A stretch of 64,000 nucleotides of DNA from Porphyra umbilicalis (Eukaryota; Rhodophyta; Bangiophyceae; Bangiales; Bangiaceae). The notes beneath the pieces were generated by a model. The model saw only the letters and a list, made by a program, of their open reading frames with translations, was not told the DNA's origin and searched no databases. Positions 11,566 through 51,426 of this stretch are shown in pieces. Both the position numbers and the translations under genes were made by a program. The DNA lies in NCBI GenBank assembly GCA_002049455.2, contig KV918838.1, forward strand, positions 123,971-187,970, read 5' to 3'. How positions within the stretch are numbered: position 1 is the stretch's first letter; the number at the start of each line of letters is the position of its first letter.

Positions 11566-11596
<31 letters not shown>

Positions 11597-19665: not shown

Positions 19666-19910
19666 TCGTCCCGACGATATGGACTGGCCGAGCAAGGTAG
19701 TGAGGGGCGCCTCCAGTTGGACACACCCTCAGGTGTGGGCGGGGGCAGGGGGGGGGGGGGGGGGGGGGGGGGGGGAGAGGGAAGGATGGGGTGAGAGTGC
19801 CAGTTGTTGTAAAGGCAGCAAAGCGGGGGGGTTGAGCGGAACGACAGCCAACCACCCGGTTGCAGCCGGAGCAACCGTGTCAGCAGCTCGTGCGACGCAG
19901 CGTGTGATGT

Positions 19911-20044
19911 ACAGCCGTTCTCTCAAAAACCTCGCACGCCGACTGTTGCGCCGCTCTGACAAAGCGGCCGCTGCGACCTCGTGAAGGCCGATTTGTCAGA
20001 GTGGTGCAACAGCGGGCGTGCGAGATTTTTGAGAGAACGGCTGT
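19911..20044. repeat. 134-bp inverted repeat (foldback or MITE-like)
   Basis: The left arm starts ACAGCCGTTCTCTCAAAAAC and the right arm ends with its reverse complement, GAGAGAACGGCTGT at 20031-20044. The match continues inward with few mismatches (CTCGCACGC / GCGTGCGAG; CTCTGACAAA / TTTGTCAGAG; GGCC / GGCC), leaving a centre of about 16 bases. It may be a foldback element or two transposon ends meeting head to head. A diverged GAGAGAACGGCCGTA occurs at 3509, just before array 1. Confidence 0.85.
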
Positions 20045-20260
20045 ATTTGGTGACGCGGGTGGGGGCGCGCCCGCCCCTCGGTGAGCGTGGCGGCGCCCGG
20101 TGCGTCCGTGCGGCCGGCGCGCCGGCACGCGCCACACGGGCCGCGAATGAGGTACTTCAGCTCGACATGTACGAATTATCAGATACTTTCGGTACATCGT
20201 TTCATCCGTCCTACGACTGAGTGAGAAGTGGGTTCACACAACTGTATTTCGACAGAAAGA
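20045..20260. other. Spacer before array 3
   Basis: No gene seen. It ends in ACTGTATTTCGACAGAAAGACC (20241-20262), the lead-in shared by the repeat arrays. Confidence 0.4.
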
Positions 20261-20340
20261 CCAACACTTTAACTCAGTGATCGACACTTTAACCCAATGA
20301 CCGACACTTTAACCCAGTGGTCGACACTTTAGCCCATGGT
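20261..20340 (+). repeat. Array 3 of the GACACTTTAACCC repeat
   Basis: Four copies of the 20-bp unit, followed by ATGGTACCGAGCTTCAGGTG, a diverged form of the sequence that follows arrays 4 and 5 (ATGTTACCGAACTTGAAGCG, ATGGTACCGAACTTGAGGCG). Same orientation as the others. Confidence 0.85.
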
Positions 20341-21385
20341 ACCGAGCTTCAGGTGGATAGCAGGCCACTTCGAATGTGTATTCACACGTCGTCGTCATCC
20401 GTAAATGTCACGCCCTTCGTGCCCGGCGCACTACCCCTAAGTACGAAGACGTACCGTACACGATTCTGGGGGGCCCCGAGCAGAACGGCACCACCTCCCA
20501 TCTCCCCAATGGTGGTGTTCAAGCAGCTGACGCTACCACCGAGGCCGTTGAGTGGTGCCGGGGGGCGCGTGCGACCACCCGGCGGCAAGCGTACAGGCGA
20601 CCGTTGCAGCTGCACGGTGCATGCAAGGCCGCGGCCTTGCCGTGCGGCTAAGCGGTCGCCAGCGATGCCCCGTCATGGTGACGGGGGGGGGAAGCGCCTG
20701 CCTGGCGGGTTGACGTGGCGGCGCACGGGGACACGCACACGCCGTCGCGGCCGCTCCGCGGTGAATTCAATGGCACGGGAAGACGGAGCCACACGGGTGC
20801 GCACGGGGAAAAGGAGCAGGCGTGCCTTTGGTGGTGTTTTTTCTCACTACCTTAGCTCGAGCGCACGCCTGCCGGTGAGCGCGAGCACAGTCGTCCCGCC
20901 GGCGAGAATTGTGTCGAGAGTACAGGTCTTTCTGGTCTTCTTTCCCGTGCCCGGGGCTAGTCCCCGGGCGCGGGCTCTCTTATACGCTCTGAGCGGTGCC
21001 CGCTCCACTCGCCCACTCGTCACTCGGTTCGGCTGTTGGCCAAACGGTTCGGGTCCGTTGGGCAGCGCGCTAGCCACGCTGCCGCCCTTGTGCTACAGTC
21101 GAACAGACGCGCCGCCCCTGCCCCCTTCCGGCCGTACGCCGTCGTCGCATCGGGCCCGTCGCAGTGGTTCACCCATTCTGCACCTCTCCGCCGCCGCCGA
21201 CGCCTCGGTCCTGCCTTTCGCTCCAAGTGCCGGCGCGCGGGCGCGGACCACTTGGGAGGTGCCCCCCCTGCGCCCGCGTGCCAACAGTGCTTCACTGCAT
21301 GTCGGAGCACCGCCAGGGATGGTGTCGCCCTCCCCCGTGGTCCCCGCAAGGCAGAGGCCACGACGCGTCGGGTGCAAGAGGGTTA

Positions 21386-23392
21386 CTACTCCCGCCGGCG
21401 CCGCTGCGACGGACGTTCCTCGTCGCGGGACGCCCCCCGACCACCCGAGGAGCGGGCTCGGCCCCGCTCCGTTGTGGTCGACATCCGGGGCCCGCTGGCG
21501 CCCCCCCCAGGCGTCCCCATCTGCCCGGTGCACAGGCGCTCGACTTCGGCGTCCAGGGCCTGGCGGCCTACCTGCGGCCCGAACGTCGTGCGAACCGCGT
21601 CAAGGAGCGTTTCGTACGCGACCTGGAGGGTGGCACCCTGCATGTCCCGCAGTGCCCGACGGAAGACCGTCGCGTCGCGGCAGCGCATGTGCGCCAAAGC
21701 CAGGGCCAGGGTCTCGGGCGGCGCCGTCCGCGCGGCCCATGCCGCAGACTCCTCCTGACGGATCGCGCGCACCGCCGCGACGACGCGCGCGGTGGACGCA
21801 AGGGGCTCCCGCGGGGGCTCTTGCGCGGCGTCCAGGACACCCCAAAGCGCCTCATCCTCCGACAATGGGACGACGGCCGCCGGGGCGTCTGCCGAAGGCG
21901 ACGCGGGCGCCCTTGAATCGACCGGGTGTGACGGGGTGGAGGGAGTCTTGGTCGTGGGGGGTGCCCGGTGGGACGCCGACTGGGCCGCGCTACGCTGGGA
22001 CCTCGCTGCCGGGGAGCCGCCGTCGGGGCTTGGCGGTGGGGACGTCCGCTCCGCCGGCGACCCGGGTGCCGACGCCGAGCACGCTCGCGGGGGCACACCG
22101 GATGCCCCCGGACTCGGTGGTGCACGGAGTGGGCTCTCAGGCGTACGGCGCGACACCGCGGGAAAATCCCCGGCGGGGTGGAGAAGCTCGAACGCGTAGA
22201 CCATCTCGGGTGCGTAGGCGACACGGATGGCTGCGACCGAACCGTCCGGGAACCGGTTCGTAACGTCCGCCTGGTGCACCTCCTCCCATGGGACGAGGGG
22301 TAGGCCCTGCCGCGCGGCTGCAAAACACAGGGGCCACGAGGGATCGGCCACCCCAGTGCCGAGCACGTTCAAGGGGATGCGCGTGATGAGGTGTGGCAAC
22401 TCACCCGGCAGCCGGTACATGAGCTGTCGTACACGTAACTCTGCAAACCAGGTGGCGGCCACCTTCGCCACGAGTTCAGCGAGCAGTGTGTGCCGTAAGG
22501 GGCGCTTGCGTGCCACAAGCGCGCCCCGAAAGTATGTGACGACCAGCGGCCACGTGGGCGCCAACGAGAAGGGCAGTTCACGAAAGATGTCGGGTACCTC
22601 CGGCAGCCAGCGGCGCATCGTTTCCGGTGAAGCGTCTTTGAAGAAGGAGCTCGCCCAGGGGGGGCAAATGAAGCCCTGGCGGGCGACCTGGCACGTCGCC
22701 TCCTGCACGGCGCGCCCGGGGGGGGCGGTTGACGGGACGAGGTGACCCTCACCCTGACACACAAACTCCTCCCAATTGAACCACGCCTCCGCGTCCTCCG
22801 TCTGCGGGTCGTCCGCGTGCTGCGATAGGAGCATCTGCACCGACAAGATGTAGGACTCGTCCGCGGGTGCAAGTAGCCACGGCAGCTCACTCTCAAAGAC
22901 GCCCACCCGGTCCGCGTAGACGGCTGTAGGCCACGCCCGCCGCAAGCGGGCAAACGCCTTCGCAGCCACGACGACGTCCACACGGTCGCGGTCCATGCAC
23001 CGCAGGGTGTTGAACGAGCCCCACCGGGCGAAGCGGAAAAACACGTCGGGGAGGTGTTCTTTCTCCGGGTGGCAGAGGACCTCGTTGCAAAACACGAGCA
23101 CCTCGAGTGTTGTCCGGTGATGGCCGCGTGGACCGGTGACCGGGTCGCCATGAAACTCGCCCAGCGGTCGCGCAGAAGCTGCGCGATCGCCCGTCTTGAA
23201 GACGTCCACGAACCCGCACGGGGTGCCCCACTGCCGGAGGCGCATACGCGCAATAGCAGTCACGCGGTTGGTGTAGGCGACTGCCCGCACCTTTGCCTCC
23301 GCCTTGGCACGACTGTGCTCCTGATGGGGCATGCCGTCGAGGTCGAACGGGGTCCAGCGGCGTAGGTCCGCATCGTCCATCGCACCGTCCAT
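21386..23392 (-). CDS. Orphan 668-aa protein between repeat arrays
   Basis: One intact frame from ATG 23392 (MDGAMDDADLRRWTPFDLDG) to a stop at 21386-21388. The frame is open further upstream, but only from non-ATG codons. Residues 1-420 look like a globular domain rich in Trp, Phe and Arg, with segments such as RFARWGSFNTLRCMDRDRVD and WFNWEEFVCQGEG. The rest is a Ser/Pro-rich linker, a short helical domain and a basic tail (SRDEERPSQRRRRE). I recognise no family and no catalytic motif. It lies alone between arrays 3 and 4 on the opposite strand to the arrays, so it is probably the cargo or mobility gene of that unit. It is unusual here in having no frameshift. Confidence 0.7.
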   Translation of the reverse strand: MDGAMDDADLRRWTPFDLDGMPHQEHSRAKAEAKVRAVAYTNRVTAIARMRLRQWGTPCGFVDVFKTGDRAASARPLGEFHGDPVTGPRGHHRTTLEVLVFCNEVLCHPEKEHLPDVFFRFARWGSFNTLRCMDRDRVDVVVAAKAFARLRRAWPTAVYADRVGVFESELPWLLAPADESYILSVQMLLSQHADDPQTEDAEAWFNWEEFVCQGEGHLVPSTAPPGRAVQEATCQVARQGFICPPWASSFFKDASPETMRRWLPEVPDIFRELPFSLAPTWPLVVTYFRGALVARKRPLRHTLLAELVAKVAATWFAELRVRQLMYRLPGELPHLITRIPLNVLGTGVADPSWPLCFAAARQGLPLVPWEEVHQADVTNRFPDGSVAAIRVAYAPEMVYAFELLHPAGDFPAVSRRTPESPLRAPPSPGASGVPPRACSASAPGSPAERTSPPPSPDGGSPAARSQRSAAQSASHRAPPTTKTPSTPSHPVDSRAPASPSADAPAAVVPLSEDEALWGVLDAAQEPPREPLASTARVVAAVRAIRQEESAAWAARTAPPETLALALAHMRCRDATVFRRALRDMQGATLQVAYETLLDAVRTTFGPQVGRQALDAEVERLCTGQMGTPGGGASGPRMSTTTERGRARSSGGRGASRDEERPSQRRRRE

Positions 23393-23730
23393 CGCGGCCC
23401 GACCCCGGGGTGGTGTGACGGTCGCCGCCGCCGTGGGTGTCGACCAACCCGAAAGAACGTGCACTCCCAAGGCTCCGGCACGCGCCGATAAAGTCGCTCG
23501 TGCGACTTGGGGGGCGCCGGGTGACAGGGACAGGGACACGCTGGCTCGCTGGCACCAGCCGGGGACCCGTTTGGAACTGGCAACGGGGATTTTGCGCGCG
23601 CGAACGAATGATCGGGTCTGGGAAGGATCTCAGCAGGTCACAGTAGTTCCCAGTTGCCCACAACAGATACTTTGAAATTGATGTAAACGCCAATTCCTCT
23701 GTTGGTCGATAGAAGTTTATTTCGACAGAA

Positions 23731-23826
23731 AGACCGACACTTAACCCAGTGAGAGACACTTTAACCTGATGATCGACACTTTAACCCAATGGACGACACT
23801 TTAACCCAGTGACCGACACGTTAACC
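23731..23826 (+). repeat. Array 4 of the GACACTTTAACCC repeat
   Basis: Five imperfect units, preceded by TTTATTTCGACAGAAAGACC as at array 3. Confidence 0.85.
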
Positions 23827-24276
23827 GATGTTACCGAACTTGAAGCGGGGTGTAGACCACTTTGAAAGTGTATTTAAGACTCGATGGGCGGCTGCTGTTC
23901 AATTGACACGACTCGACGCAACTACCGATCCGACGGCAGCAACATTCAGAAACGGGAAGCCCAACAGCCCGGCGGGAGTTTGATCCTCGTTGTCGAGGTC
24001 ACATGCTTTTTGTCTGTGTCGTGCGCTGGGCATCGTCTTGCTTGGCGGAGGGTTGCGGTGTGTTGGTCTGTCCCCTCGGCGCGCGCGGCGGGCAGCCTGG
24101 CTGTGCGTTCACGCCGACCCCCGCTCGACCCCCTTGACGCGTGCGCCCGGTCGAGGGGCGGTTTTCTGGGCGCCCGCCCCCGGTCTGTGGACCCCCTCGG
24201 CGCGTGCGCCCAACCCCCCCCCCCCCCCACTCCTCTCTACACCTCTTCTCCTCCACCCCCGTCGTCGCCGCACGGC

Positions 24277-24792
24277 ATGGAGGCCCGGCGTCTGGCGGCG
24301 CATGTCGTTCGCTTCCCTGGTCGGCCTGCAGCGGCTGCTGCCGGAGTCGTGGACGCCTGCCTGGACTTTCTACACCGCGAGTACCCGCTGGCGGCGTGCC
24401 ATCCGCTGGCATCGGAGCGCACGCGGGTGGGGATGATGGACCATCTAATGACAATGGGCGTTGTCATTCCCATGATCTTTGACCCTGACGAGCTGGGTAG
24501 GGAGCTTGCCCCCTTTTACGACGGCGTCTTGGACGCGGCCGGTATACGTTCGGCTGTAGGTAGCTGGGTGCTGCACGAGCAGATGGAGAGTGGGCACCGT
24601 GTTGGGTGGGTGCCGCGCGCCGTTGGGCTGATGTACAGAACTGCGTGTGTGCCCCCATTCTGTCCGGGCTCTGGTCTGGTCTCTTCTCGTGTGCTCCTGT
24701 ACGTCCACCCACCGCAACGTCGAGGCAGGCGGCAGGATGGAGGTGATGATAGATGCGCGACGATACCAGGCCCTGTGTGTCACAGCACGTGA
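24277..24792 (+). CDS. Hypothetical protein inside the 1.9-kb element
   Basis: The ATG at 24277 opens MEARRLAAHVVRFPGRPAAA, then DFLHREYPLAACHPLASERT and DPDELGRELAPFYDGVLDAA, which look coding. The last third (after about 24650) is less convincing and may be intron or untranslated sequence. No family recognised. It follows a C-rich tract at 24213-24227. Confidence 0.35.
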   Translation: MEARRLAAHVVRFPGRPAAAAAGVVDACLDFLHREYPLAACHPLASERTRVGMMDHLMTMGVVIPMIFDPDELGRELAPFYDGVLDAAGIRSAVGSWVLHEQMESGHRVGWVPRAVGLMYRTACVPPFCPGSGLVSSRVLLYVHPPQRRGRRQDGGDDRCATIPGPVCHST

Positions 24793-24929
24793 CAATACGA
24801 GGTGAGGAGACGACGTGTAGGCCGTACGCCCCGCTCCCCTGTTCCGTGCAGCACTTGGGTGTGCTTTTGCACGTCCTCTGGTGCCCGTGCACCCATGTGG
24901 ACTGCCGCCGCCTTTGTTGCTAACAGCCC

Positions 24930-25253
24930 GTGGAACAGCACGAGGGCCCAACTGACGAGCAGACTCCGAGGGTATGCCACTCGACACAGATGGAAATGCG
25001 TGACCACGAGGCGAAGCACGAAAGCCCCCCCGCTTATTTTAGGAGCGACACTGGCGCCACAAACTCATCAAGCGTCCCACGCATAGAGGGCTTTGCGGTA
25101 GAAGCACACGGCCTTGTGGTCCTCGAGGGGTACACCCAGCGAAGCCGGCACGGCGACGTAACCAAGGCGCGTGGCCAGGGCCCCAAGGTCGGAAACGACC
25201 TGTTCCGTTGTCCTCGGTACCGAGGTTGGTACAGAGCACCGCGGCACGTCTGA
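24930..25253. other. Coding-like stretch of uncertain strand
   Basis: A plus-strand frame ends ...CPRYRGWYRAPRHV at 25253 and a minus-strand frame (25268 to 25068) ends ...VPLEDHKAVCFYRKALYAWDA. Both look protein-like and they share wobble bases, so I cannot choose. Neither starts at a good ATG, suggesting an exon or gene fragment. Confidence 0.3.
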
Positions 25254-25432
25254 TGCCCCGTCTTGCACGTGTCATCGCAGGTGCGTGCAGTCGCGGACTT
25301 GCGGCGGGCACTGCAGCTCCTTAGACACAGGCTGCAGCAGGCCGTGGCGGGTCTCGGCGTGAGGCGCGTCCGCCACCGAGCACCCGAATGTCGGTGTTTA
25401 GTCGTCCCTGAGACGCCCCGTCCTCTCGGATT

Positions 25433-25549
25433 CCTCATTGTCCTCATTGTCCTCATTGTCCTCATTGTCCTCATTGTCCTCATTGTCCTCATTGTCCTCA
25501 TTGTCCTCATTGTCCTCATTGTCCTCATTGTCCTCATTGTCCTCATTGG
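25433..25549 (+). repeat. 9-bp minisatellite CTCATTGTC, 13 units
   Basis: Thirteen near-perfect copies in 117 bp, with degenerate units continuing to about 25612. The same repeat in degenerate form is at 32614-32740. Confidence 0.95.
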
Positions 25550-26097
25550 CCCTTTTCTTCATTTTCCTCATTGTCCTTTTAGTTCAGTATCCCCATTGTC
25601 CTCATTGTCTGTTTTGTCAGGCTGTGTAGGCGACATCGACCGCCGCCACCGCCAATCAGTCGCCGCCGCCTGCTCCATCCAGTGGTTTTCCTTTTTCGCA
25701 CTGGCATGACGTGATAGAGGACGCCACAGACACCTTTGGTCCACCAAGCCCGCGCCACCGCGCGATATCTTTCCGCGAGAACGAATCATGTTGAAACATG
25801 ACAATGTCACCCCCTTGTCCCAGTCACTCACAGGCCGATGTCTTCGATATTGGGAAGTGGGCCAAACCTGACAATGTCACCATCTGCCCCTGCAAGCTAC
25901 AAGGAAGGGCGCCGCTCGAAAATATTTTGGCAAGCTTGGAATCACTCGAAACGACTCCAGGTCAGAGAGGCTGCCGCACCCTGTCCTCGAGAGCGTGCAT
26001 CGGAACTGATCCCACTCGCCGTTGCGTGTCTCACTTCGAACCAACCCCATCCCCGTACGTCTTCTCTTCCATCCCCCCGTCACTGTCTCTCTTTGGC

Positions 26098-27341
26098 GAT
26101 GGCTGTTTCGGGCGCCGAGCGCAACCGGAAGTACAAGGAGCGGAAGCGCCTGGGCTTAGGGCCCGCTCCGCGTGGAGCCCCGCGCATATCCACCACGACC
26201 GAGGAGCGAGCGGCCGCTCTCGCCGCTGGTCGGGTCTACAAGCAGCAGAGTCGGGCAGCCAGGCGGGGGTGCACCTCCCCCCTGAATGCCCCCCGCGTCT
26301 TGACCGGGTGCCGCCCCATCACACCAGTCAACGCTGGCAGCGGTCCTGCGGCTGGGGGGTACTAGCCGCGTCCAACGACGCTACCGCTGCTCAAGCTGAT
26401 GACGCAGTTGCCGAGCGCGATGATTGTCTGCTACCCGCGGCTCGCCCCCCTTCTGATCCCCCTTTACTGCCTTTGGGTGATTCTTATCTGCATGTGTTTG
26501 GTGAGGACCGCGAAGAGCTTCAGAGCAGCTTGGTCCGAAGCGCGGACGCTGAGTCGTGCGCCGATCGGGGTGCAGCCGCGATGCGGGCGTCAACCTGGGC
26601 GGTGGGGGGCCCTTTGGAGCTGGCGCGTCGTGCGTTGAGTATTGGTGGACAGGGTCACTGGATGTTCTCGCTGGGTATCTCGCGGTCTTTGACGGCCAAC
26701 GTCCAAGCTGAGATGCGCGCTCTCGCTGGGTCGGGGCTCGTCACGACCATCTTCAACTCGACAAGCGTGAGGGCTATTGTCGCACAGGGACGGTCAGCGG
26801 ACCGAGGCCGCGGCATGGTGCACCTGTGCGACGAAGCTGCAGCCGCGATTGGTGGCGCGCCCGGCCTGATGGCAATTGTTGCGGCGCTGTCAGGGCTCTC
26901 GTTTCTTGTTTCGACTTTGTTTGGTTGGACATATGGCTACCACAGGCCTGCTGCACTGGTGTCTTCCCGCGGGCCTGCCAGCAGCTCGCGCACACTGACG
27001 ATCGACCACCGTTTGTGACGGCGGATCCCCCTCGGCTTCTTGGCGCTCTCTTGGCCGTAGGGCCGGACACACGCCTACGACTGTGGCCCGACTCGCACCG
27101 AGTGGTGCGTGGGGGCTCCACCACTGGGGGAGGACCGGGGGTTCTCGTTGACGTCAACCCTTATGATTGTCTGGTTTTTCGTGGGGATTCTGTGCACTGT
27201 GGTGTGCGCAACAGCTCCCGTCTACATCACTGCCGCATCCACGTGTATCTAATCGCTGCTGGGCATGAGACAGACGTCGACTTGGATGCAACCAACCCGC
27301 TGCCTCGCTGGGCGGGACCGCGCAGGGCGCGCAAGTGGTAG
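26098..27341 (+). pseudogene. Fragmented gene with a 2OG-Fe(II) oxygenase-like C-terminus
   Basis: Three plus-strand pieces follow each other in different frames: MAVSGAERNRKYKERKRLGL from 26098 (basic), then LPLGDSYLHVFGEDREELQ to EMRALAGSGLVTTIF (about 26350-26900), then a piece ending at 27341. The last piece contains AHTDD (about 26990), GDSVHCGVRNSS and CRIHVYL: an H-x-D, a distal H about 69 residues later and an R about 12 further on, the metal and 2-oxoglutarate pattern of the double-stranded beta-helix dioxygenases. Two introns or frameshifts would be needed to join the pieces; I see no clearly consensus splice sites. Function inferred only for the last 110 residues. Confidence 0.35.
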
Positions 27342-29100
27342 CAAGGTACGTTCTCTCTGTCGTGGTCGCCTTGGTGGGCGAGTGGTGTGTGAGTGTGTGC
27401 GTTGCTGTGATTGGTGTGATGTCGTCCATATGCTGCGAGGAGGAAGACACGGCACGCATCTGCGTCAGGATCCACAGTGGGTACATGATAACTGACGTCA
27501 CGGGGCTCGGTCTACGACTTCGGCGCCCTGCACCACTGTGCGCGGCAGCCACCTTCCCTCGTTTATCTGCGTATGTTTTTTATTGCGACCTCGTCCTGTT
27601 TTGTGATTCTCTGCTTCCCCTGGACAGCCTGGACAGGAGGACCCGACCAAATAAAAATGCCGGCAGACAGTTTGGGCGCCGGGTCGTGGGCCGCCGTGGC
27701 CGGGAGGGTGCCTATCACGACGTCATTTGCCGGAAAGGGGGTGGCGCAGCGGGCGTGCGCAGTCGTTATGTTAGGATAACCGACAGCGGCGGGCCGGGAA
27801 AGGCACTAGACCAACCCCAAATACAGTCAGCGTCTCCAGCATGACATTTCTCGTCCACGAATGCACCACCCGCTCCACCGTCCATTTTCCACCTCGCCAC
27901 CCCCAAAACACTTGTCGACACACAACTGTGTCCCTGCGGCAGGCGCTGTGGCGTGAAAAGAGTTTGTCAAAAAATAAAAGAACGTGGCTCCGCGGTGTCT
28001 GTTTTCGCACCGATAAAAGGCAACCAACCCTGCGGAGACCTCTTTCCCGCACCTCCGCTGCCACACACCACCTGACCACACCGTCTGCGTCACCTACTCC
28101 GCAACACCTGCCAGGTTTTCCTGTTCCGCCGTCGCCCCTTCACCGTCGTCGCCGCGTGCGACACGACAATGTTGCGGCAGAGGTGCAGTAACAGACGCAT
28201 GCGACCCACCCGGGACACGACGAAGGTATATGTGTGGTCGGCGGACGGCCTAAAAGACGAGGCCGGCCACGCGTGGTATTCTCCTGTCCCCAACTCTGCT
28301 CATTCAGCTCCAGGAGCAAGTCGTCCCCCGCCGCAGACCTCCCACACTCTCCGACCTGCAGCCATCCCCCGCCGTCTACACAGTCACCCCACTACCCCCT
28401 TCAAGTCAACGCTAGAACCGTTCTGCCGTCATCGTGACGTGCCGCTCAGTTGCCAACCAGCGGCGACGTCCCGCCGCCGCTGTCTCCGCCAGCGCCGACG
28501 GCCACGAGGCGGCCACAGCCAGAAAAGTGGCGTGCGCCACCGCCTGAGTGGGCGCCCCCTGTACCCAGAGACGAATACTCCTACCCCTGCCGGACAACGA
28601 CCCCTTCCACGCCACCGCAAAGCATCCTGCTGGCCGCTGCCCCGCCACAACGCTGACCGGCTGGCGCCGGTCGACGCGTCGCAGCCTTCATCGTTGGGCA
28701 GCAGTTCCAACTGGAGACCCGCAGCGTTAGGAACGAAGAAATCCATGGACGTTATAGCGGCGGTCCCCGCGCTCTCTGCACTGTCGCTGCCGCCCCAGCG
28801 CACCCCCCTGCTCTGGCGCCGGCAGCACTGGCGGCCGCACCGCGGCGCGGCTGCCGTTGAGTGGTTGTGGGGGGGGCGCCGACACTTTGCCGCCCCCCCG
28901 CCGCCGCGACCGGCAGGGCGCCAACAGCCGCAAGCGGCAGTACGTCATGGGGTGGCAGAAGGTCAAACTGGGAGTGGAAGGGGGGAGGGTCAAGAGGGAC
29001 TTTCAAGCGGACGGGGTATGGGGCATCATAGCACGGGGGTGCGACGAAGGGGGGGGGCGAAGAGGGCGACCTGGACCGACCCTGGCACTGTCGTCTCAAA
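27342..29100. other. No supported gene; scattered short open frames
   Basis: The best candidate is a 40-residue frame starting ATG 27657 (MPADSLGAGSWAAVAGRVPI) and ending 27779, too short to trust. TATA-like ACCGATAAAAGG lies at 28009. Frames at 28200-29317 are low-complexity and overlap on both strands. Confidence 0.3.
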
Positions 29101-29149
29101 TTTCGTGTCAAAAACCAGCTATAAAAACAGGAACGGGGCATTCTGCATC

Positions 29150-29235
29150 AACAGAAGCCGCTGCGGCTCAGTGGTAAAAAACCACGCTCGCGATCATGAT
29201 ATCACAGGTTCAAATCAGCAGTGCAAAAGCCGTTG
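29150..29235 (+). other. tRNA-like (possibly SINE-head) stretch
   Basis: GCGGCTCAGTGGTAAAA resembles a pol III A box and CAGGTTCAAATCAG a B box, about 50 bp apart, with CTATAAAAAC upstream at about 29119. The cloverleaf does not close (no good D or T stem), so this is not a normal tRNA gene. It could be a decayed tRNA-derived element. Confidence 0.3.
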
Positions 29236-29369
29236 GCTTGTAAATTGGTGCACCTTCCGAGGTGAGCAACACCTCCCAACTCCAAGGACCACGGACGCTA
29301 AGGTTAAGACATACTAAGGAAATGGCTCGTTATTCGCAATGAATGCTCCCTTGCCTACGGGCACTGCCG

Positions 29370-29480
29370 GAATTTCCGGATTGGGTTCTCCAGGCTTTGC
29401 CTGGCTAGGCGTTAGCTCCTTAGTTCTAAACTCGCAGCGCCGTAGTAGTTCGTGGTTTATCCCTGAATGAAATTCAGGTG
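29370..29480. other. Cluster of short perfect hairpins
   Basis: In about 110 bases: CCGGAATTTCCGG, CCAGGCTTTGCCTGG and CCTGAATGAAATTCAGG, each a 6-7 bp perfect stem with a tiny loop. This density suggests a structured RNA or a protein-binding region. No family match recognised. Confidence 0.45.
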
Positions 29481-29879
29481 GAGTTGGGTCGCACTTCCAG
29501 AGGACAACGTCCTCCGCTGTCTTTTTCTTTTCTTTCAACGTATCCCGCCCCCCCCCCCGCCTCGGTTGCGGGCTGCACCAAGACGGCTGTGCGCGACAGG
29601 GGAGACTTTGTGGCGACAGGTGGAGAGGGTGCCGACGCGGCGTCGCCCCCTCCCGCCGCCGCCCACATATTGGCGGTGGCCGCCAGCGCGGCGATTCTCC
29701 GCGGCGTGGCGGCCGGCAGCGGCGACGACTGTGGCCGTGTGCACGATGACGAGCGGGGCTGGCTTGCCCGTCGCCGCCGCCGCCGCCGCCGCCTATTGGG
29801 CGACTACGCGGGGTCGGGGACTGCGTGGGGCCGTGTGGCGCGCTGCGCCGGCCGTCGCGACCCCGTCGGCCGCGTCGGC

Positions 29880-30027
29880 CGCCGCAGCCGCTGCGCTCGC
29901 CGCCGCCGCAGCCGCCGCCGCAGCCGCCGCCGCCTCCGCCGCAGCCGCCGTAGCCGTAGCAGCCGCCGCAGCCGCCGCAGCCGCCGCAGCCGCCGCAGCC
30001 GCCGCCGCAGCCGCCGCCGCCGCACAG
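29880..30027. repeat. GCC/GCA triplet repeat
   Basis: Imperfect trinucleotide repeat that reads as poly-Ala, poly-Arg or Gly/Cys-rich depending on frame and strand. Open frames across 29300-30360 exist on both strands because of it and I do not accept any. Confidence 0.85.
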
Positions 30028-30333
30028 CGTGGGCAGTTCGGCGGTGGCCGGAGGGAGGACGCCACAGCGTCCCCCCACGGCGATCGCGCCGCGCCGCGGG
30101 CGCCTGCCGGTGGCCGCGCGGCGGCACTCCGGTTGGCGCCCGTGACGGCCGTGGCCGCGGTGGCGGCGGCAGCGGTCAGAGCTCCGCCTGGCGGCAGCGG
30201 AGGCAGCACGCTCGCTCGCCCGAGCAGAGGTCACCTTCCGCCGAGAGCACCGGCCAGAAGCCACCCCGCGTCGCGACCACCGGCGGTCGCCGCGGTGCGA
30301 CGGCACCGGCAGACGCACCATAGACTGTCATGC

Positions 30334-31150
30334 TTCTGGGAGGGGTTGCGTATGTTGTGAAAAAAAGCATCGCCGTTCGGTCTTTTCACGGCGCTTCTCG
30401 ATACAGAGCGGTCATGGGAGCAGCCTCCATTAGTTTTTGTACAGTTGCGTGAGGACCCCCTCTTTGGCATCACTTTTTCAGTGCACGTCTATAAAGTCGA
30501 GCCGTCGCTCAACGGCCGGTGCGTGGCACGTCTGTGAGTTTCGCATATGCACGCGATGCTCCTTTGCGAGCCTATCCGATGCCACACCCAAAAAGGCAGT
30601 TTGACAAGCTGAAGCGTCGCCAACGCGTTTTTCGTAGGCCCGAACCATTGAATTGATGCGTCTGGGAGGGGTTGCGTATGTTAAAAAAAAGCACCGCCGA
30701 TCGGTCTTTTCACGGCGCTTCTCGATACAGACGGTCTTGGGAGCAGTCCATAGGTTTTTGTACAGTTGCGTGAGGACCCCCTCTTTGGCATCACTTTTTC
30801 TGTGCACGCTATAAAGTCAGCGTCCTCAACGGCCGGTGCGTGGCGTCTGAGTTTGCAATGCACCGATGCTCCTTGCGAGTCCATCCGATGCAACAGCCCA
30901 AAAAGGCAGTTTGACAAGCTGAAGCGTCGCCAACGCGTTTTTCGTAGGCCCGAACCATTGAATTTGATGCGTCTGGGAGGGGTTGCGTATGTTACAAAAA
31001 AAAAGCACCGCCGATCGGTCTTTTCACGGCGCTTCTCGATACAGAACGGTCTTGGGAGCAACGTCCATCAGGTTTTTGTACAGTTGCGTGAGGACCCCCT
31101 CTTTGGCATCACTTTTTCTGTGCACGCCTATAAAGTCAAGTCGTCACACA
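30334..31150 (+). repeat. About 310-330-bp satellite, three units
   Basis: Unit starts marked by CTGGGAGGGGTTGCGTATGTT at about 30334, 30663 and 30972. Each contains CTTTTCACGGCGCTTCTCGA, TTTGTACAGTTGCGTGAGGA, CTATAAAGTC and, except the truncated third, AACGCGTTTTTCGTAGGCCC. The third unit ends about 31150. A diverged fourth unit is visible near 31230-31600 (ACGCAGAAGCGTCGTTGATGCGTTTTTCGTGAGC). Not coding. Confidence 0.85.
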
Positions 31151-31769
31151 CTGGGGGGGTGCCAGGGTGGCACACAACGCATCACTGATGAGCACCTTTT
31201 GTGTTTTTAAGAACGGGGGAGGTGTCGTGAGCACTCTCAATACGGGTTTTCAATCGCCGCGCAAAACGCCTGTCCGTAGCGTCTCTTTTTCCGAGCATAC
31301 ATACGAGCTCGGGCGGTGCGTCAACGGCCAACTCGTGGGCTGCCGAAAGGTTTGTGATACGTCGCGTGCATCTAGAGTGCTGGTTGTGACCTTGGGAAAC
31401 TGTTCGTGAGGTCGGTTTTTCTGTGCTCGTCGTCTGAGTCGTTGGTTCCCTCAAGTGCAAGCAACTGTTCGGTATGCATGATCGTCCTGTGTACCTGGTG
31501 CTTTAAAGAGAGCGCAATCGCCTGCGGCACATCACAACGGGCAGTTGGTGACGCAGAAGCGTCGTTGATGCGTTTTTCGTGAGCAGCGAAGCCCGACAAT
31601 GGATGCATCCGTGGGGGGAAGGGTGGCGTGCACGCACGACATGCAGCCAAAAAGGGGAACACGTGGCTGCGCCGGGTTGTCTTTGATGAGCAGTGACATG
31701 ACAATGGCTGTACAAAAACAACAAATGGCCCACAAGAGGCACGCAAAGAGAGCCCGCTGTGCTATCAGC

Positions 31770-31961
31770 CTACACCGTGTTCATCGCGGGATAGACCGAA
31801 CGCATGCGGGCTAGCACGGCCTTAGAGTTGTTCATCGTCGCGAACTTCTGATTGAGGTACGCCACCGCGCCGTCTACGCCGCAGCTGTGCCCCGCGCGCC
31901 CGTAATCCGTGTTGAATGCGCGGTACAACGCGATGCGTTCGGAGTACAGCTGACCAGGCTC
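31770..31961 (-). pseudogene. Relic of a Crypton recombinase C-terminus (GCR1_C)
   Basis: The frame between a TGA at 31962-31964 and a TAG at 31770-31772 reads LYSERIALYRAFNTDYGRAG and then FATMNNSKAVLARMRSVYPA. This matches the end of the Crypton protein at 54760-58635 (LYSERAALYRAFDTEYARRG, RNSKAVLKELRRDYP) at most positions. The rest of the recombinase is missing or decayed, so this is a fragment of a related but different copy. It lies between the satellite and array 5. Confidence 0.75.
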
Positions 31962-32154
31962 TCACGCGCCCTGTGCTCATGTCCGAGAGCGCCGGTCGTC
32001 GTTGCCTGTCGCACCAACAACCACACCGCAGCATCTCCTCGTCTCAAGAGTTGATAGTGCAATTTGGGTACACAACTACGCGTATGATCCCGGACGGCAG
32101 AGGCGCTGCCAAACTGACCGCCCACCACCAGACATAACCCCGCTGCCGACGACC

Positions 32155-32274
32155 CGATGATCGACACTTTCACCCAGTGATCGACACTTTAGCCAGTGAT
32201 CGACACTTTAGCCCAGTGACCGACACTTTACCCCAGTGATCGACACTTTGACCCAGTGATCGACACTTTGACCG
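32155..32274 (+). repeat. Array 5 of the GACACTTTAACCC repeat
   Basis: Six units with the variant GATCGACACTTT. Followed by ATGGTACCGAACTTGAGGCG, as at array 4. Confidence 0.85.
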
Positions 32275-32740
32275 ATGGTACCGAACTTGAGGCGGGTTGT
32301 AGACCACTTTGAAATTGTATTTAAGACTGCGCGGGCGGCTGCTTTTCAATTGGCGCGACTCGACGCAACTACCGATCCGACGGCAGCAACCGCGACGGTG
32401 TCGCCTGGCCAAAGCGCGAGTCGGCGCTCTCGCACTCGTGCCCGGCGGTGGTGGTGGTGGAGACGCGCGCCGCGTGTTGGTGGGTGTCGGTGGGTGTCGG
32501 TGGGTGTCGGTGGGTGTCGGTGGGTGTCGGCGTGGGGCCCGTCCGCCACGAGCGCCCGAATGCCGGTGTTTGGTCGTCCCAGAGACGGCCGCCCCGTACT
32601 CTCGGATGCCTCAATGTCCTCATTGTCCCCATTGTCCTCCTTGTCCTCCTTGTCCGTTTTCTTCAATTTCCTCATTGTCCTCATTGTCTGTTTCCTCATT
32701 GTCCACATTGTCCTGGTGTTCCTCATCGTCCTCATTGTCC
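32155..32740 (+). mobile_element. Internally deleted derivative of the 23.7-25.6 kb element
   Basis: Begins with array 5 and the roughly 115-bp arm shared with 23827-23942. After a short junction containing the 10-bp repeat GGGTGTCGGT (about five units, 32478-32528) it joins the other shared end (GGCGTGGGGCCCGTCCGCCA, GTGTTTGGTCGTCC, then degenerate CTCATTGTC repeats to 32740). The 1.3 kb that separates the ends in the longer element is absent. Confidence 0.6.
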
Positions 32741-33550
32741 CCGCCCCCCCCCCCCCTCACCAGGTATGGTGGGGGGTCTCTAGGGCAGCGGCGCCACCCG
32801 AGGCGACCGACACCAGCCGTGTTGGTCCAAATTCCACCCCACACGACCGACCACCCCCACCGCCACGACGACTCGTGCGACCGGGTTTCATCCATGTCGG
32901 CGCGTTCAACACCAGGTAGGAGGGGGTGTTTCGGCAAGGTGGTCGCACGCCCCGCGGGATGGGCGTGGGGTCGTCGCAGCGCTGTGGCTGGGCCCATCCG
33001 TCGGACCCGTGGACCTGTATGGCGGGCATGTGCTCTATGCGGCGACGCCGCCGCACCGCAGCGGTCGGCAAGACGTCGTCCAGGCGTCTCCATGATGGCC
33101 AACGGTGGCGTTCAACGCGCAACACCCCTTCTGTCCGTGACACGCCCGCGCGTATGACGTCAAAATTTTCCACACCCCACTCCGCGGAGGGGGGGGGGGG
33201 GGGGGCGGGAGGGGGGACTGGCGGTGCCCGTTCGTCCGTACATTGTCTGCTCCCACCATCGGGTGCCGACCCACCGGGTGCCGACCCGCCGACCCACCGC
33301 CCAGCTTCTCCCACGCCCGCCGGTGCCCGCATGGCGGCCTGTGGGTACACCCACCTGCACGAGCCGGCGGCGGCGTGGCGCGTGGAGCCGAGAAAGGAGG
33401 AGAGCGCGGCGGGAGTGCCTGCACGCGAGGGTGTGTTTGTGTCGTGCGCTCGGCCGGCCCGCAACCAGCTCCTAGACCGTCTCGCAGGGTGGTCTGGTCC
33501 CGCCCGTGTCGTGTGGTGGTCCGCGGCAAGCCAGCCACCGCTACCCGTGC
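32741..33550. other. GC-rich upstream region of the Fanzor gene
   Basis: Overlapping low-complexity frames on both strands; none preferred. A G run lies at about 33190-33206. Confidence 0.4.
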
Positions 33551-33557
33551 CGTTTCC

Positions 33558-33565
33558 TATAAAAG
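33558..33565 (+). promoter_or_regulatory. TATA box candidate for the Fanzor gene
   Basis: CCTATAAAAGTG, an excellent TATA match, lies 157 bp upstream of the ATG at 33715. No other core element is identified. Confidence 0.5.
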
Positions 33566-33714
33566 TGTGGTGGGTGCTGGCGCCGTGCACAACCATGCGC
33601 CCACAGGCCTGGCCGCCGTTCCGCCCCGCGCCGACACCCCTAGCGGGCGGCAAGGGCGCGCCACCGCCTTGAGGACGTCAAGCCCTCCCCGCCCGTGTGC
33701 GCTCGTCCCCCGCC

Positions 33715-36700
33715 ATGGACGACCAGTCGTCGACCGACGAGGAGGAGGCGCCCGGCACGTCGACAGCGCTTCGGGCGCGTCGCAGCGGCCACTGTCCCAC
33801 GACGCGGCGCCCCACGACGACCACCAGTTTGGCGACAGCGCCGCCCCGCGAGGCGACGGCGAGCGGCAACGACAATGGGGACAATGGCGGGGGTGTGCTG
33901 GGCCTGTGGGCGCAGACCTCGACGACGACGACGAGGTCACGCGCCTCGGTACGGCCGGCGAGGACGCGGCAATCAAGGCGGGTTGCCACCTCGACAGCGC
34001 GCGGCAGAGTGCGGCGTCTGCCGTGCGGTCGGCAACGGTGGAGGTTGCCGCCGCCGTCGCCGCGTGTGAGGCGGCCGGTGATGCGGGGCCGGTGGCGAGT
34101 TTGCGTGCCGCGAGTGCCCTCCTGTCCAAGCTCCTCGCATCAAAGCCGGTGCACGCGCGGGGCACTGGGTCGCCCGCGTCGGCGGCGATGGACGACGCCA
34201 CGTCGGCCTCTACTGCCGTGCTGCAAGCCGTCGCCGCGGTGACGGTGCCGCCGCCCCGGCCACCCGCACCAGACGACGGTGATGAGGGTGCCGCGGCACC
34301 CGCCGCCGATGCCGACACAAGAGCCGACGCCTCCGCCCGGGTGGCGTGCAGGCGCCTCTGCGCGCGAGCGCGTCACGCGGCGGGCAGCGTCTTGTCGGCG
34401 GTCAAGGGCCTGATCCCCATGGTGCAGCCCGACGCGGGGGACCACGCGGGCGACGATGATGGCGACGGCAATGGTGGCGACGCTGGCGCCACGGCGCGCG
34501 GCGGCGGCGGCACGCGTGGCCGCCAGCGTCGATGCGGCGGCTGCGGGGCGACGGGGCACAATGTGAAAACGTGTCCGGCCGACGCTGCCACCAAGGCGGC
34601 GCACGCGGCGCGTGGCGAGGCGGCCAGGGCGGCCAAGGGCGCCAAGGCCGGCAGCGGAAACAACAAGTGCAGTGCGTGCCACGCGCGTGGCCACACCCGG
34701 GCCAGCGCTGTGTGTCCGCTGCGAGCCGTCGCCCACGGCTGGTCGGGCCACAATGCAGACCGCGGGCGTGACTTGGGGTGCGTCGACCAGCACCGCATGA
34801 CGGGGGAGGTGACGACGACCGTTTCCGTGTCGGTCGACCGGTTTTTTGGTGTCCGACGACGGCTGGCGCCAGGGGGGCCGGCAAACTCTTTGCCCCCGAC
34901 GGGGCGCCCGCCTACGACGTCGAGCCGTCGCGCGCCGACGGGGACCGCCGCCGCTGTCGCAAACGCTGCCGCCGCTGTCGCAAACGCTGCCGCGGGGGCG
35001 GCCGCGCTGACCGAGTTGGCCACGGCACAGACAAAGCATCTGCGGCTCGTGTCCATTGTCATGGACGGCACGATGCGGTACCTGCTCGAGCGCGTCGATG
35101 GTGGTGGCGGCGGGCAGGGTGTGGGAGGGGGCGGCGGCGGTGGTGGGGATGGCGGCGGTGGCGGCGGCCACCGCCGGCGCACGCTCGACGAGTTTATCGC
35201 GGCCGTGCCGGCGTCGCTGACAAGCAACCACGGGCTTGCCTGGAAGCAGGTCGCTTCGACCGTCTCTTGTCGCGGTGTCCACGCGTTTGGCGGCGCCCCT
35301 CGGCGAGCGTGCGTCGACTGCTCGGGTAGAGGCGCACAAGTCAAGCCCCGCGGGGACATCAAGGCCGCCGCCCAAGGCGACGGCGACTACTCTGCCTTTG
35401 TGGCGGCGTCGGCGGCGGTGGCAGACGCGGTTACCGAGCCAAGCCAGTTGCCGTGCAGCACGCTGCTGCCGGGTCCGGGCGACACGTCTGGTTGGGCCAC
35501 CGTGGCGACGGCTTTTGAAAACCACTATGTGACGCACGTCACGTCGGCGGTCAAGGCCATTGCCAAGTGCATCGTTCACGACGTCTACCCACAGGCCCCC
35601 GGCGGTCTCGACGGACAGCGCCGCGCGGCACTGATTGCGGCCCTCGTTGCCGGCCTGCAAGCCGCCGACGGAACGCGCCCGCCGTCGTTCAAGTGGCCAG
35701 CGGGAAAAGTGTCTGCGGCGGATGGGGCTGCCATGGCGGCCGAGGCCACGCTGGCGTACGACACTGTGCTCGTCTACGCCGGTGGTGACGGTCGGCGGCG
35801 CTGTCTCCTCCAGCTCGACACGTCGGCCCTGCGACAGCGGCCGCTGCACATCTACCCGCTGCTCCACTATGCCCAGCTGTTGTGCATCCGTGCCGGCATC
35901 GAGGCGACCGACACGTCACCCGGCCGAGCCGCCACGTGCACCGCGTACGCGCGCGTCGGCGGCGCGCTGCTTCGCCGGCGCCTGGCGTCCGCAGGGGTGT
36001 CGCTGCCAGCGCCGACAACCGACGGGCTATTCATCCAAACGCTGCTCCGCCGCGCGCGCATTGTCGGCGCCAAGACGGTGGTCGGGCCCTCCATCGTGTC
36101 GGACGGTGTCGGCGTGCACTTTACGATACGGCACCCCGCCACCGCCGCGTCGACGGCGGCCGCTCGGCGGGCGCGTCGTAAGGCTGCAAGTGACGGTCGT
36201 GGGGGGGGGGGGGGGCCACCGAGACGGCGAGCGTGCGGACGCAGCTGGACCGCATGGCGTTTTCGACCGACGTCGTCAAGGAGCTGGCGTTTGTTGGTTG
36301 GGACCCGGGCGTCGCGTCGATTGTCGCTGCCTACTGCCCCGGGGCGGTGCCGTTTGTTCAGTCACCTGCGCCGCACCTGCACACGTATCGGGCGTACCGG
36401 GCGCTTCGGATTGCGGGCGACGCGCTCGCGCGGGCGGCCATGGCCGCGACCGCCGCCGCCGAGTGCCTCGTGCGGCGGGGTGGTCGGGTTTTGCCGACCG
36501 TCGACGCGCTACACGCCAAGTTGGCTGACGTTGCGCGCGCGGCCAAGGCCACCGCGGCGGGCCTTCCCGTCGGCGGCGGTGACGCGGTGAGGCAGACGAC
36601 CAAAAAGCGCGGCCGTGGAGCGCTCAGTGCGTCGACTGGGGCGGCGGGATCTCCCCCAAAGCGGACTCGTACACATCTGGTGGGCCCGCCGGCGGCCACG

Positions 36701-38662
36701 CCCGCGGCACAAGCGTCTTTGCCGCCTTTGGAGCACGCACCGACGGTGCCGACAGACGCGGTGGACCCCCCCCCCCCCAAGCGCCGGCGGTACAAGCAGC
36801 CGGCCTTTGGCGACGAGTGGCTGACCCCGATTCAACGGCAAGAGGTGGCCCGCAAGCGGGGGACGAGCGCCCCCGGCCGCCGATGGGCCATCCTTACGCG
36901 CATGCGCGCCACCGCGCACGCCACGATCAATGGCGGCAACGTCCAACCGTGGCACCTGTCCAACCACGTGTGTGTGTGGGTGGGCGAGGCGGCCCTGTTC
37001 AAAGAGGCGGCGCACGCGACGGCGGCTGTCAAGGCCAAGACAGAAGCGGCGGCGCACGCAGAGGCGGCGTGGCGTGCAGTGTCGGTCGACAGTGGGGCAC
37101 ACGCCGCGTGCCTCGTGCAGCGCGCGGCGCAGGACAAGCGCCAGACGGCGGCGGCATTGCGCACGGCAGAGCGAGTGGCGGCTGCGGCGGCCGCTGCTGC
37201 ACCCGCTGCGCCCCCGCAGCTCGGCGCGCCCGGCACGTCGCTGCCGTCGGCCGACCGCTTGCGCGTGTTGTGTGCCGCACTCAAACGTGCGGCCGCCGCC
37301 GGGGGGCACCGGCGCGTGCGCGTCCCGCCCACTGGTGCGACGCTGGTCGTCTCCAAAGGCGCGTACCGCGAGGCGACGGGCGCCGGTATGACGAGGCGCG
37401 CCGAGGCGGCAGCGGTCGCGGTGTGGGCGGCGGCACACCCAGGCGTGTCGCGCGAGTCACTGACGGCCGGGTGCTCCCTCAAGGTCACGACGTGGGGCGC
37501 GTGGGTGGTGGCGGCCACTGTGCGCATTGCGCGCACCTACACAGACGCCTATCAGGCGGCGTACGGGGCGGCCGCGACGTACGGTCAACGCAAGGCGCGG
37601 CTACACGCCCTCATCCAGCGCAACCAGTACGCGGCGGTGCTGGCGCGCCGCTTGACGGGCGGGTTGCTGCGGCGCACGGTGGACGGTACCAAGGCGGTGT
37701 TGGCGATTGGGCGGTGTCGGCCGCGCGCCGGCAGCGTCGACCTCGTGCGGCGCATGGCCAAACACGTGCACCTCGTGTACGTGGACGAGCACAATACGAG
37801 CCAGACGTGTGCAGAGTGCGGCCACGGCTTGTGCAACACGTACGTGTCGCCCGACTCGCCGGTGGACCTGACGCCCCTCAAGGCGGCAAGCAGCTACGCG
37901 CATCGCGCGTCGGTGTCGGCGGCCAAGCGCGCCTCGCCCCTCCGCGGCGGCCGGCGCGCGCGACGGGGTGTGACGACCGGCAGTCGGTCGGGTCCACGCG
38001 ACGGTGTGGCTGCCCAGCGCGCCAAGGAGCACGCAGAGGCGGTGCGGACAAAGGTGCTGCAGGCGATTGCGGCTCACGGCAAGTGGGCGTTTGGGACCGA
38101 CCCGCTGGCGCTGTGGGGGGTCAAGCTGTGTACCAACGTCGCCTGCCCGGCTTCGTACGTCGGGCGAGACACCAACGCGGCGCGCAACATGTCCAAGATT
38201 GCCATCAAGAGCATGCAGGTTCGGAGCATCTACCCCCACCTCCGGGGGTACACCGTGTCACGCGCGCCACCCCAGGAAGACCCTGTACAGGCGGTGCGGC
38301 ACGCGGCTGCGATCGACGCGGGTACCTACGAGGCCGGCTACGGGTGGACGCGGTGTTCACCCACGTCGTGGGAGCGTTGGCGCCGACCTGTCGTCACCGA
38401 CCCGGCGGTCGCGGAGGCGAGGACGGCCCCCACGGCCGTGCCAGTGGCGGCGCCAACGGTGCGGGTAGAGGCGCTGGGTGTGGGGGCAGACGGGGCGCAC
38501 GACGCAGCTGCTGCGTCGGCAAGCGGTGACCTGGCGACGAGTAACGTCGGCCAGATGGCTGCTGCCAGCCCCGCGCCAGCCGTGGGACGCAGCCACTCGT
38601 CTTCGAGCCGCCTCGAGCGGGTAATCGTAGACTGTTCACCAGGTTCATCTCGTGGGGTGTGA
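33715..38662 (+). CDS. Fanzor: eukaryotic TnpB-like RNA-guided nuclease (frameshifted)
   Basis: The ATG at 33715 (MDDQSSTDEEEAPGTSTA) starts an estimated 1,640-residue protein. The frame changes once near 33750-33900 and again at 15 G residues (36201-36215). Order: acidic N-terminus; two CCHC zinc knuckles (CGGCGATGHNVKTC at 34533-34574; CSACHARGHTRASAVC at about 34667); the VSDGVGVHFTIRHP motif (about 36095) that precedes RuvC in Fanzors; RuvC-I GWDPG (Asp codon 36302); NLS-like PPKRRRYK; the RuvC-II Glu in VDEHNTSQTC (37787); zinc ribbon CAEC (37808, 37817) with CTNVAC (38129, 38144); RuvC-III GRDTNAARNM (Asp 38168). All three acidic residues and four zinc ligands are present. Family knowledge: such proteins cut DNA guided by an RNA made from the 3' end of their own locus. 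Product may be inactive if the shifts are real. Confidence 0.9.
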
Positions 38663-38663
38663 A

Positions 38664-38760
38664 TAGGGAGCTTCGCTCCTCACCTCTTCCAGAGGTGACT
38701 ACTGGTGTCTCTTGGCTGACGGCAGAAACACACGCGATAGGTATTAGCCAATGTGATCAA
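38664..38760 (+). ncRNA. Candidate Fanzor guide-RNA (omega-RNA) scaffold
   Basis: Two bases after the Fanzor stop codon (38660-38662) a hairpin GGAGC-TTC-GCTCC (38667-38679) is followed immediately by CACCTC-TTCCA-GAGGTG (38681-38697). Fanzor and TnpB guide RNAs are known to come from the 3' end of the nuclease gene and its downstream flank, with stem-loops followed by the guide. The position fits; the guide boundary cannot be set from one copy. 38760 is an arbitrary limit. The hairpins could also act in transcript end formation. Confidence 0.4.
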
Positions 38761-51063: not shown

Positions 51064-51426
51064 ATGGCTGCCCGCCGCCGTTGCGTCATGAGTGAGCTGG
51101 GGAGTGCTAGCCTACCACCCCACCGACAGCCCACCGACAATGTCACCAGTCATATCGGAGGGTGCACCCGCATCACTTGGCATGTTTGTTTTACTTTTTT
51201 TTTGACTTACGAGAAAAACACGACCGCCGATATTTGGACGGCGGTGTGTCACATTGTCGGCGGTAGAGACAGTACCGCTGCCGATTTGCAACTGCTGTAT
51301 TCTGTGCTGGGGAGAGCGACGCAGCCACCGCAGATTCGTGACGGCTCGTGTGCTGGGGAAGATGTCGACGTCAACAATCGAGGTCGATTTGTAGACGACG
51401 ACGACGGTGCCGTGCGCCCACTGTAA
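51064..51426 (+). CDS. Hypothetical 120-aa protein in the long repeat, copy 1
   Basis: ATG at 51064 (MAARRRCVMSELGSASLPPH), then FTFFLTYEKNTTADIWTAVC and DLQLLYSVLGRATQPPQIRD, ending DVDVNNRGRFVDDDDGAVRPL. It is identical in the second copy. The middle looks globular. No family recognised. Directly overlapping its end is a short Cys-rich frame (51407-51508). Confidence 0.35.
   Translation: MAARRRCVMSELGSASLPPHRQPTDNVTSHIGGCTRITWHVCFTFFLTYEKNTTADIWTAVCHIVGGRDSTAADLQLLYSVLGRATQPPQIRDGSCAGEDVDVNNRGRFVDDDDGAVRPL

Follow-up and report, generated by a model that had tools for sequence, protein, structure and literature searches.

The DNA considered here, called the window, is a stretch of 64,000 nt from the red alga Porphyra umbilicalis (contig KV918838.1, positions 123,971–187,970), with a G+C content of about 66%; genome searches covered the 83.8-Mb, 665-contig assembly. 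Phycobilisome linkers (PF00427) have 12 matches there, four of them on a single contig (C665) taken to be the plastid genome and eight elsewhere; linkers encoded in both plastid and nucleus suggest a red alga, although by this criterion a glaucophyte is also conceivable. It carries a Fanzor-type gene, resembling those of the TnpB-like RNA-guided nucleases of eukaryotes, near the 3′ end of a mobile element. The features of the locus are collected in Table 1, where P0002 and P0001 are the upstream and the downstream open reading frame (ORF) of the gene; L numbers denote other loci of the genome.

Table 1. Features of the Fanzor-type gene and of the element that carries it (window coordinates)
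Feature	Position	Strand	Basis or remark
Mobile element with the Fanzor-type gene, 5′ end AGTTGGACACACCC..., 3′ end ...GAGGTGACTACTGGT	19715..38706	+	homology to the L015 copy
5′-terminal region of the element	19715..19900	+	5 genome places, 93–100% identity
212-bp module, made of short tandem repeats, ahead of the gene	32179..32390	+	related copies elsewhere in the window
ORF P0002	33243..36590	+	supplies the reading frame of the gene between about 33.9 and 36.2 kb
Fanzor-type gene	33715..38662	+	extent of about 1,650 codons; the frame changes twice in this copy
Two CCHC-type zinc knuckles (P0002 431–444, 476–491)	34533..34715	+	PF15288, E = 0.0023, below the curated cut-off
Segment SDGVGVHFTIRHP (P0002 953–965, from S953)	36099..36137	+	translation of the upstream ORF P0002
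Poly-G tract, 15 G, second frame change	36201..36215	+	alignment of 20 copies
ORF P0001	36233..38662	+	RuvC-I Asp (D24), long insertion, RuvC-II-type Glu (E519), C4 zinc ribbon, RuvC-III Asp (D646)
TNB (PF07282) match	37763..37828	+	Pfam profile search
3′-terminal 117 bp, present also on elements without the nuclease ("ghosts")	38590..38706	+	genome search with the 3′ end
Candidate guide-RNA scaffold, one long predicted hairpin	38638..38706	+	the flank beyond 38706 would serve as guide

Reading frames, motifs and selection

An earlier reading of the sequence alone (below, the sequence-only reading) had taken the locus for one very large Fanzor gene. Its outer limits were placed exactly, since the first base opens an ATG (MDDQSSTDEEE...) and the last one closes a stop codon. 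A single open gene was not borne out: three frames follow one another across the interval, one as far as about 33.9 kb, a second belonging to P0002 and a third belonging to P0001, and because of these two frame changes the window copy is unsupported as a working gene. The change near 33.9 kb is deduced from a comparison of the window frames with L015, which is in a single frame there. At the poly-G tract, 15 of the 20 aligned copies have lengths that, read with the tblastn frames, preserve the frame relation of the copy L014, and five (window, L009, L011, L012 and L018) differ. As causes of the window frame changes, mutation and assembly error are indistinguishable. An intron between P0002 and P0001 was considered and rejected, the separator being a poly-G tract of variable length through which most copies read.

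The gene is open in L014, a single frame of 1921 codons from stop to stop that includes the core; the next longest frame among the 20 fetched copies is that of L005 (1458 codons). Counted from the region that matches the window ATG, with the start codon provisional, the L014 protein would have about 1,650 residues. The very large size proposed earlier (an estimated 1,640 residues or so) agrees with this and with the purifying selection over the N-terminal part described below.

All the motifs named in the sequence-only reading lie where it had put them: in P0001 GWDPG (D24), VDEHNTSQTC (E519, C526), the four cysteines of CAEC...CTNVAC (C526, C529, C633, C638) and RDTNAARNM (D646), and in P0002 the Fanzor-type segment listed in Table 1. 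The RuvC-I motif has the DPG typical of Fanzors (P0001 24–26). E519 stands exactly six residues ahead of C526-x2-C529, which is followed by C633-x4-C638 and D646, and as the only glutamates within P0001 400–526 are 408 and 519, the catalytic Glu would be in the shifted position (Ealt). TSQTC, CAEC...CTNVAC and RD likewise conform to the order [TS][TS]xx, C4 zinc finger, RD, the second Cys pair being CX4C. DPG together with a shifted Glu six residues before CxxC is the Fanzor molecular fingerprint in Yoon et al. 2023 (PMC10711439; papers identified by PMC numbers are drawn on here for parts of their text). These positions are nearly constant in the other copies that cover them: D24 in 19/19, P25 and G26 each in 17/19, E519, T522, S523, C526 and C529 each in 29/29, C633 and R645 each in 28/30, C638 in 29/30 and D646 in 30/30. 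The pattern DPG...E-x6-CxxC...C-x(2,4)-C-x(4,8)-D, whose spacings were widened after the protein was known, is present in a single window frame out of 346 (those with 100 codons or more) and in none of 20,000 shuffles of P0001.

Profile comparisons point the same way. PF07282 scores 26.0 bits against P0001 by hmmscan (cut-off 26.3) and 26.6 bits in the genome search. The best matches in four libraries begin within the same stretch of about 20 residues (P0001 511–535), namely Pfam TNB (E = 1.1e-5), a PHROG transposase (0.0046), PADLOC Cas12f (0.016, over 512–662) and NCBIfam TnpB (0.11). A TnpB profile made of 58 ORFs from viral contigs was run against 401 targets (P0001, P0002, 199 window frames and 200 shuffles); P0001 was matched at E = 7.1e-5 and the window frame containing it at 7.4e-5, with the next target at 4.2. 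The two blocks of this profile align in the right order, each being weak alone (0.0059 and 0.45), and hhalign gave 94% over 21 columns. The similarity to the TnpB/Fanzor superfamily that had been predicted was thus recovered, and in the libraries searched no RuvC or zinc-ribbon family of a different kind matched better. Scans of the viral contigs with profile A1 (six sequences; L001, L003 and L015 left out for their stops, L020 not in) and with a C-terminal fragment found no relative, and a PDB search with P0002 returned 36 sequences, by their query ranges mainly for a glycine-rich stretch.

The N-terminal part comprises about 800 residues ahead of the SDGVGVHF segment. Each Cys and His of its two zinc knuckles is kept in 12/15 to 16/16 of the other copies covering the position, and the knuckles probably bind nucleic acid. 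Ratios of non-synonymous to synonymous substitution (dN/dS; Nei–Gojobori, each copy against the window) are 0.29–0.42 for this part (P0002 residues 225–985; 19 comparisons), 0.30–0.54 for the middle with RuvC-I (19 comparisons; about 0.5 for diverged copies) and 0.25–0.56 for the C-terminal part (20 comparisons), where the two highest values (L018, L009) belong to close pairs with few changes. Overall the ratio is about 0.3 in the N- and C-terminal parts and about 0.5 between them. L002 is absent from the first two sets for want of codons, and where tblastn pieces overlap a few codons may have been counted twice. The reading frame is under purifying selection, and since this extends to the long N-terminal part, that part belongs to the protein on which selection acts. 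Any WED and REC domains must sit there.

The element, its shared 3′ end and the ghosts

The search for TNB matches in the genome gave 54 candidates, all scored, of which 32 stood. The window element is homologous to L015 over 19715–27867 and 31973–38709. The L015 copy is 15.9 kb long, runs from AGCTGGAC to CTACTGGT and is flanked on both sides by an 18-nt direct repeat, TTGTCAGAGAAGAGAATG; no such repeat was found for the window copy, L007 or L012 in the sequence examined, the latter two having an undefined 5′ end and homology over about 19–20 kb. Element length is 15.9–19.0 kb. The same 3′ end base with different flanks is found at 17 of the first 20 loci as well as in the window, homology being lost before this end in L002, L018 and L020, and exact 15-mers of the terminus number 71 in the genome (1 for the reversed control). 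The copies form three groups (window, L009, L011, L015 and L018; L004–L008, L012 and L013; L003, L014 and L016), which have only the last 4.8–5.8 kb or so in common and differ in their upstream parts. This setting, a gene within a eukaryotic mobile element with a conserved 3′ end, is further support for the assignment to the Fanzor family.

The 212-bp module recurs, whole or in part, inside the element (20259–20336, 23732–23943, 32179–32390) and also upstream of helicase ORFs (3540–3668, 11601–11689), as if genes of one mobile family had a common 5′ module. The upstream part of L012 has a match to Ulp1 protease (E = 1.3e-4; Ulp1-type and leucine-rich-repeat ORFs at L023:5333–6337 and L023:1690–2691, minus strand), and the far end of the L012 region has one to an N6_N4 DNA methylase (E = 8.4e-13; L025:4504–6000, plus strand). 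A retroelement of the long interspersed nuclear element or long terminal repeat type, as the zinc knuckles and the long flanking repeat might suggest, was rejected, the Pfam scans of individual ORFs having shown no match to reverse transcriptase (no genome-wide search was made for it).

With the last 107 bp of the element as query, 107 candidate places were obtained, and the best 40, which were scored, are all 98–100% identical to it. Twenty ends were fetched from the 21 of these 40 that have no TNB match nearby. Eleven run at least 438 bp into the Fanzor-type gene (L029, L030, L031, L033, L036, L037, L039, L041, L042, L043 and L045), seven have only 109–117 bp in common with the element (L028, L032, L034, L035, L038, L040 and L044), L046 retains 176 bp, and in L047 the start of the contig truncates the sequence. 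Thus 8/20 of the fetched ends are of the ghost type, keeping 109–176 bp only, which is not a genome-wide fraction, because the ends were chosen for the absence of a nearby TNB match. Six of the seven shortest ghosts have upstream DNA in common and therefore represent, with the others, about three independent junctions. A TNB match lies within 3 kb upstream of 22 of the 71 exact 3′ ends, and 22 of the 32 TNB matches have such an end; the other 49 ends are not all ghosts, since the 11 ends named above carry the gene with no TNB match listed. At C82:34821–61499 and C116:9828–36028 a 5′ end and a 3′ end, paired by their positions, are about 26 kb apart, and the C116 3′ end is that of the ghost L035. 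The ghost ends have a parallel in Spizellomyces, where the guide-RNA scaffolds of ghost loci are functional (PMC10432273).

The terminus is predicted to fold into a 69-nt hairpin closed by the terminal CTGGT and an ACCAG within the coding end. The most changed copy, L001 (74 nt), folds with a z-score of −2.34, and 2/200 shuffles do as well. In an alignment of 16 chosen 3′ ends, three of them ghosts (A2; 15 distinct sequences in the pairing test), 97.5% of the cells pair in the hairpin, compared with 45–64% when the structure is slid. Two hairpin pairs have double changes, which shuffles match in 8/500 cases. As far as such modelling goes, these data support a pairing terminus, while the covariation says little.

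A probable Fanzor-family nuclease and its alternatives

We consider it probable that the window holds a broken copy of a multi-copy, transposon-carried nuclease gene of the Fanzor family (TnpB-like) in a red alga. The family assignment made in the sequence-only reading is upheld by both fingerprint residues, the constancy of the active site across copies and the TnpB- and Cas12f-type best matches in four libraries; these motifs support membership of the family and leave Fanzor1 and Fanzor2 undistinguished. An intact copy would encode a RuvC nuclease some 1,650 residues long. From homology with known systems we infer that a transcript of the element's 3′ end would fold into the 69-nt hairpin and use the flank just outside the element as its guide, that the complex would cut the matching empty site, so that the element is kept or restored, and that it might also serve the ghost elements in trans. 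A wider proposal, which we put forward tentatively and with more doubt than confidence, is that a Fanzor has grown to this size by gaining a selected, nucleic-acid-binding N-terminal module and, through one common 3′-terminal RNA, serves its own elements as well as ghosts, whose differing contents reach about 26 kb, as a common RNA-guided maintenance system for large mobile DNA. The ghost elements make it testable whether a Fanzor helps transposons in trans, and the N-terminal part, if the enzyme is active, could reveal how nucleases of this kind gain access to chromatin DNA.

Several results weigh against this interpretation. A PDB search with P0001 at E 10 returned no chain, homology outside the motifs is thin, and the eight PDB matches of profile A1 include no Fanzor. 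The distance from D24 to E519 is 495 positions and that between the Cys pairs 103 residues, the second pair being CX4C; neither spacing fits the published Fanzor patterns, D-x(125,275)-[TS][TS] in Bao and Jurka (PMC3627910) and about 120–160 residues to the Glu (the range is printed as "120160") with 12–18 between the Cys pairs in Yoon et al. (PMC10711439). The protein is therefore filed as a Fanzor-family member with large insertions and not as a typical Fanzor1. L014 is alone in having an open frame above 1,500 codons, the other 19 of the 20 fetched copies being without one, of which a contig end explains a few. As to the RNA, the 67-nt piece folds at −27.2 kcal/mol with a modest z-score of −2.25 (7/200 shuffles as good), the 117-nt folds are not significant (z-scores of −1.55, with 9/200 shuffles as good, and −0.94), and the covariation is weak, for slid versions of the hairpin have 0–2 doubly changed pairs, with 1–2 in 4/6 of the slid controls.

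The thinness of the alignment, limited as it is to short motif blocks, would suit a different RuvC and zinc-ribbon nuclease family that has converged on the Fanzor motifs; given the motif order, the combination of DPG with the shifted Glu and the agreement of four libraries, we hold this to be highly improbable. The two frame changes of the window copy, the in-frame stops of L001, L003 and L015 and the solitary open copy speak for a decayed relic family, with a nuclease that was once active, nearly all or all copies now pseudogenes and a window copy that contributes nothing. We think this unlikely, as L014 is open over its 1921 codons, dN/dS is about 0.3 also between diverged subfamilies, and some copies are 97–99% alike, which suggests recent spread. 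A more serious possibility, though one to which we give less than an even chance, is that the conserved 3′ end is only a DNA terminus for the mobilising enzyme, with no guide RNA, and that the protein aids transposition in another way. Ghost elements need the terminus with or without an RNA, the significance of the hairpin is modest, and third positions vary little over the last 180 nt (30/41 sequences used), though the same holds for some upstream bins, so that this comparison is not decisive. What argues for a guide RNA is that the terminus lies just 44 bp past the stop codon, that the 69-nt hairpin is near the size of the characterised Fanzor RNAs (75, 90 and 150 nt; PMC11423790) and that in known OMEGA systems the RNA derives from the transposon end (PMC10432273).

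The identity of the carrier is a separate matter. Fanzor1 genes occur in Helitron2 elements with flanking repeats of about 7–19 bp (Bao and Jurka 2013, PMC3627910), and the CRe-1/2/3 elements of Chlamydomonas described there resemble ours in their 3′-terminal hairpin, which in ours is a predicted one, and in a common 3′ end with differing 5′ parts. A rolling-circle element of this type would account for the lack of long inverted repeats and for the 18-nt repeat, within the published range, around L015. We nevertheless regard it as doubtful. No RepHel was found near the ends: of 28 Helitron_like_N places in the genome, all but one are on contigs that lack an exact 3′ end, and the exception lies 111 kb from the end on its contig. 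The flanking repeat is present in one of the four copies examined. Of the hairpins expected at both ends of a Helitron2, the 3′ one is predicted, while the CACACC/GGTGTG hairpin of the 5′ region, which prediction gives for the minus strand alone, does no better than shuffles (z-score −0.62). Asymmetric inverted repeats are not clear, a 7-nt CACACCC/GGGTGTG match having been noticed by eye.

Relation to known systems and other features of the window

The protein is like the Fanzor1 proteins SpuFz1, GtFz1 and PpFz1 in its DPG, shifted catalytic Glu, C4 zinc ribbon and RuvC-III Asp, and unlike them in its N-terminal zinc knuckles, in the long spacings given above and in its length, most Fanzor1 proteins having 600–700 residues (PMC11423790) and some Fanzors up to about 800 (PMC10711439). 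The SpuFz1 element is likewise multi-copy, with a conserved 3′ end and ghost loci lacking the gene, and has about 2.1 kb (PMC10432273), far less than the element described here. CMe-1A of the red alga Cyanidioschyzon merolae, the one red alga listed in Bao and Jurka 2013, is by description an unclassified Fanzor1 element, similar to ours in being without inverted repeats and unlike it in being about 3 kb long (PMC3627910). The TnpB proteins of IS200/IS605 and IS607 have the RuvC–TNB motifs in the same order; unlike P0001, the 58 TnpB ORFs compared have 273–447 residues, and in TnpB the Glu is usually some 50 residues ahead of the zinc finger (PMC10711439) instead of six.

In the open literature, taken without supplements, we found no paper that pairs Fanzor with Porphyra and none that pairs it with a zinc knuckle, and no red-algal Fanzor is named in the part of PMC6338049 drawn on. 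Characterised Fanzors in print are compact, and a selected one about twice the largest size that we found in print, although a larger one may have been published, would show what further domains RNA-guided nucleases can carry in eukaryotes. A large catalogue of Fanzors has reportedly been assembled by Jiang et al.

The window has further repeats of its own. Positions 3858–11599 and 11983–19781 form a tandem duplication of about 8 kb, the main pieces of which are 98–99.8% identical; the unit has a helicase-type ORF (AAA_11, E = 6.7e-12) and overlaps the 5′ end of the Fanzor element by 67 bp. The helicase stretch occurs once more outside the window, about 6 kb upstream. A direct repeat of 4.65 kb, 99.8% identical (49929–54582 and 59352–64000), surrounds a 1348-aa ORF (54760–58806, minus strand) with matches to NDC10_II and GCR1_C below their cut-offs, a combination that we take to be reminiscent of Crypton-type recombinases. 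A match to the Sodium:solute symporter family at 43533–44852 (E = 1.2e-10) perhaps marks a host gene.

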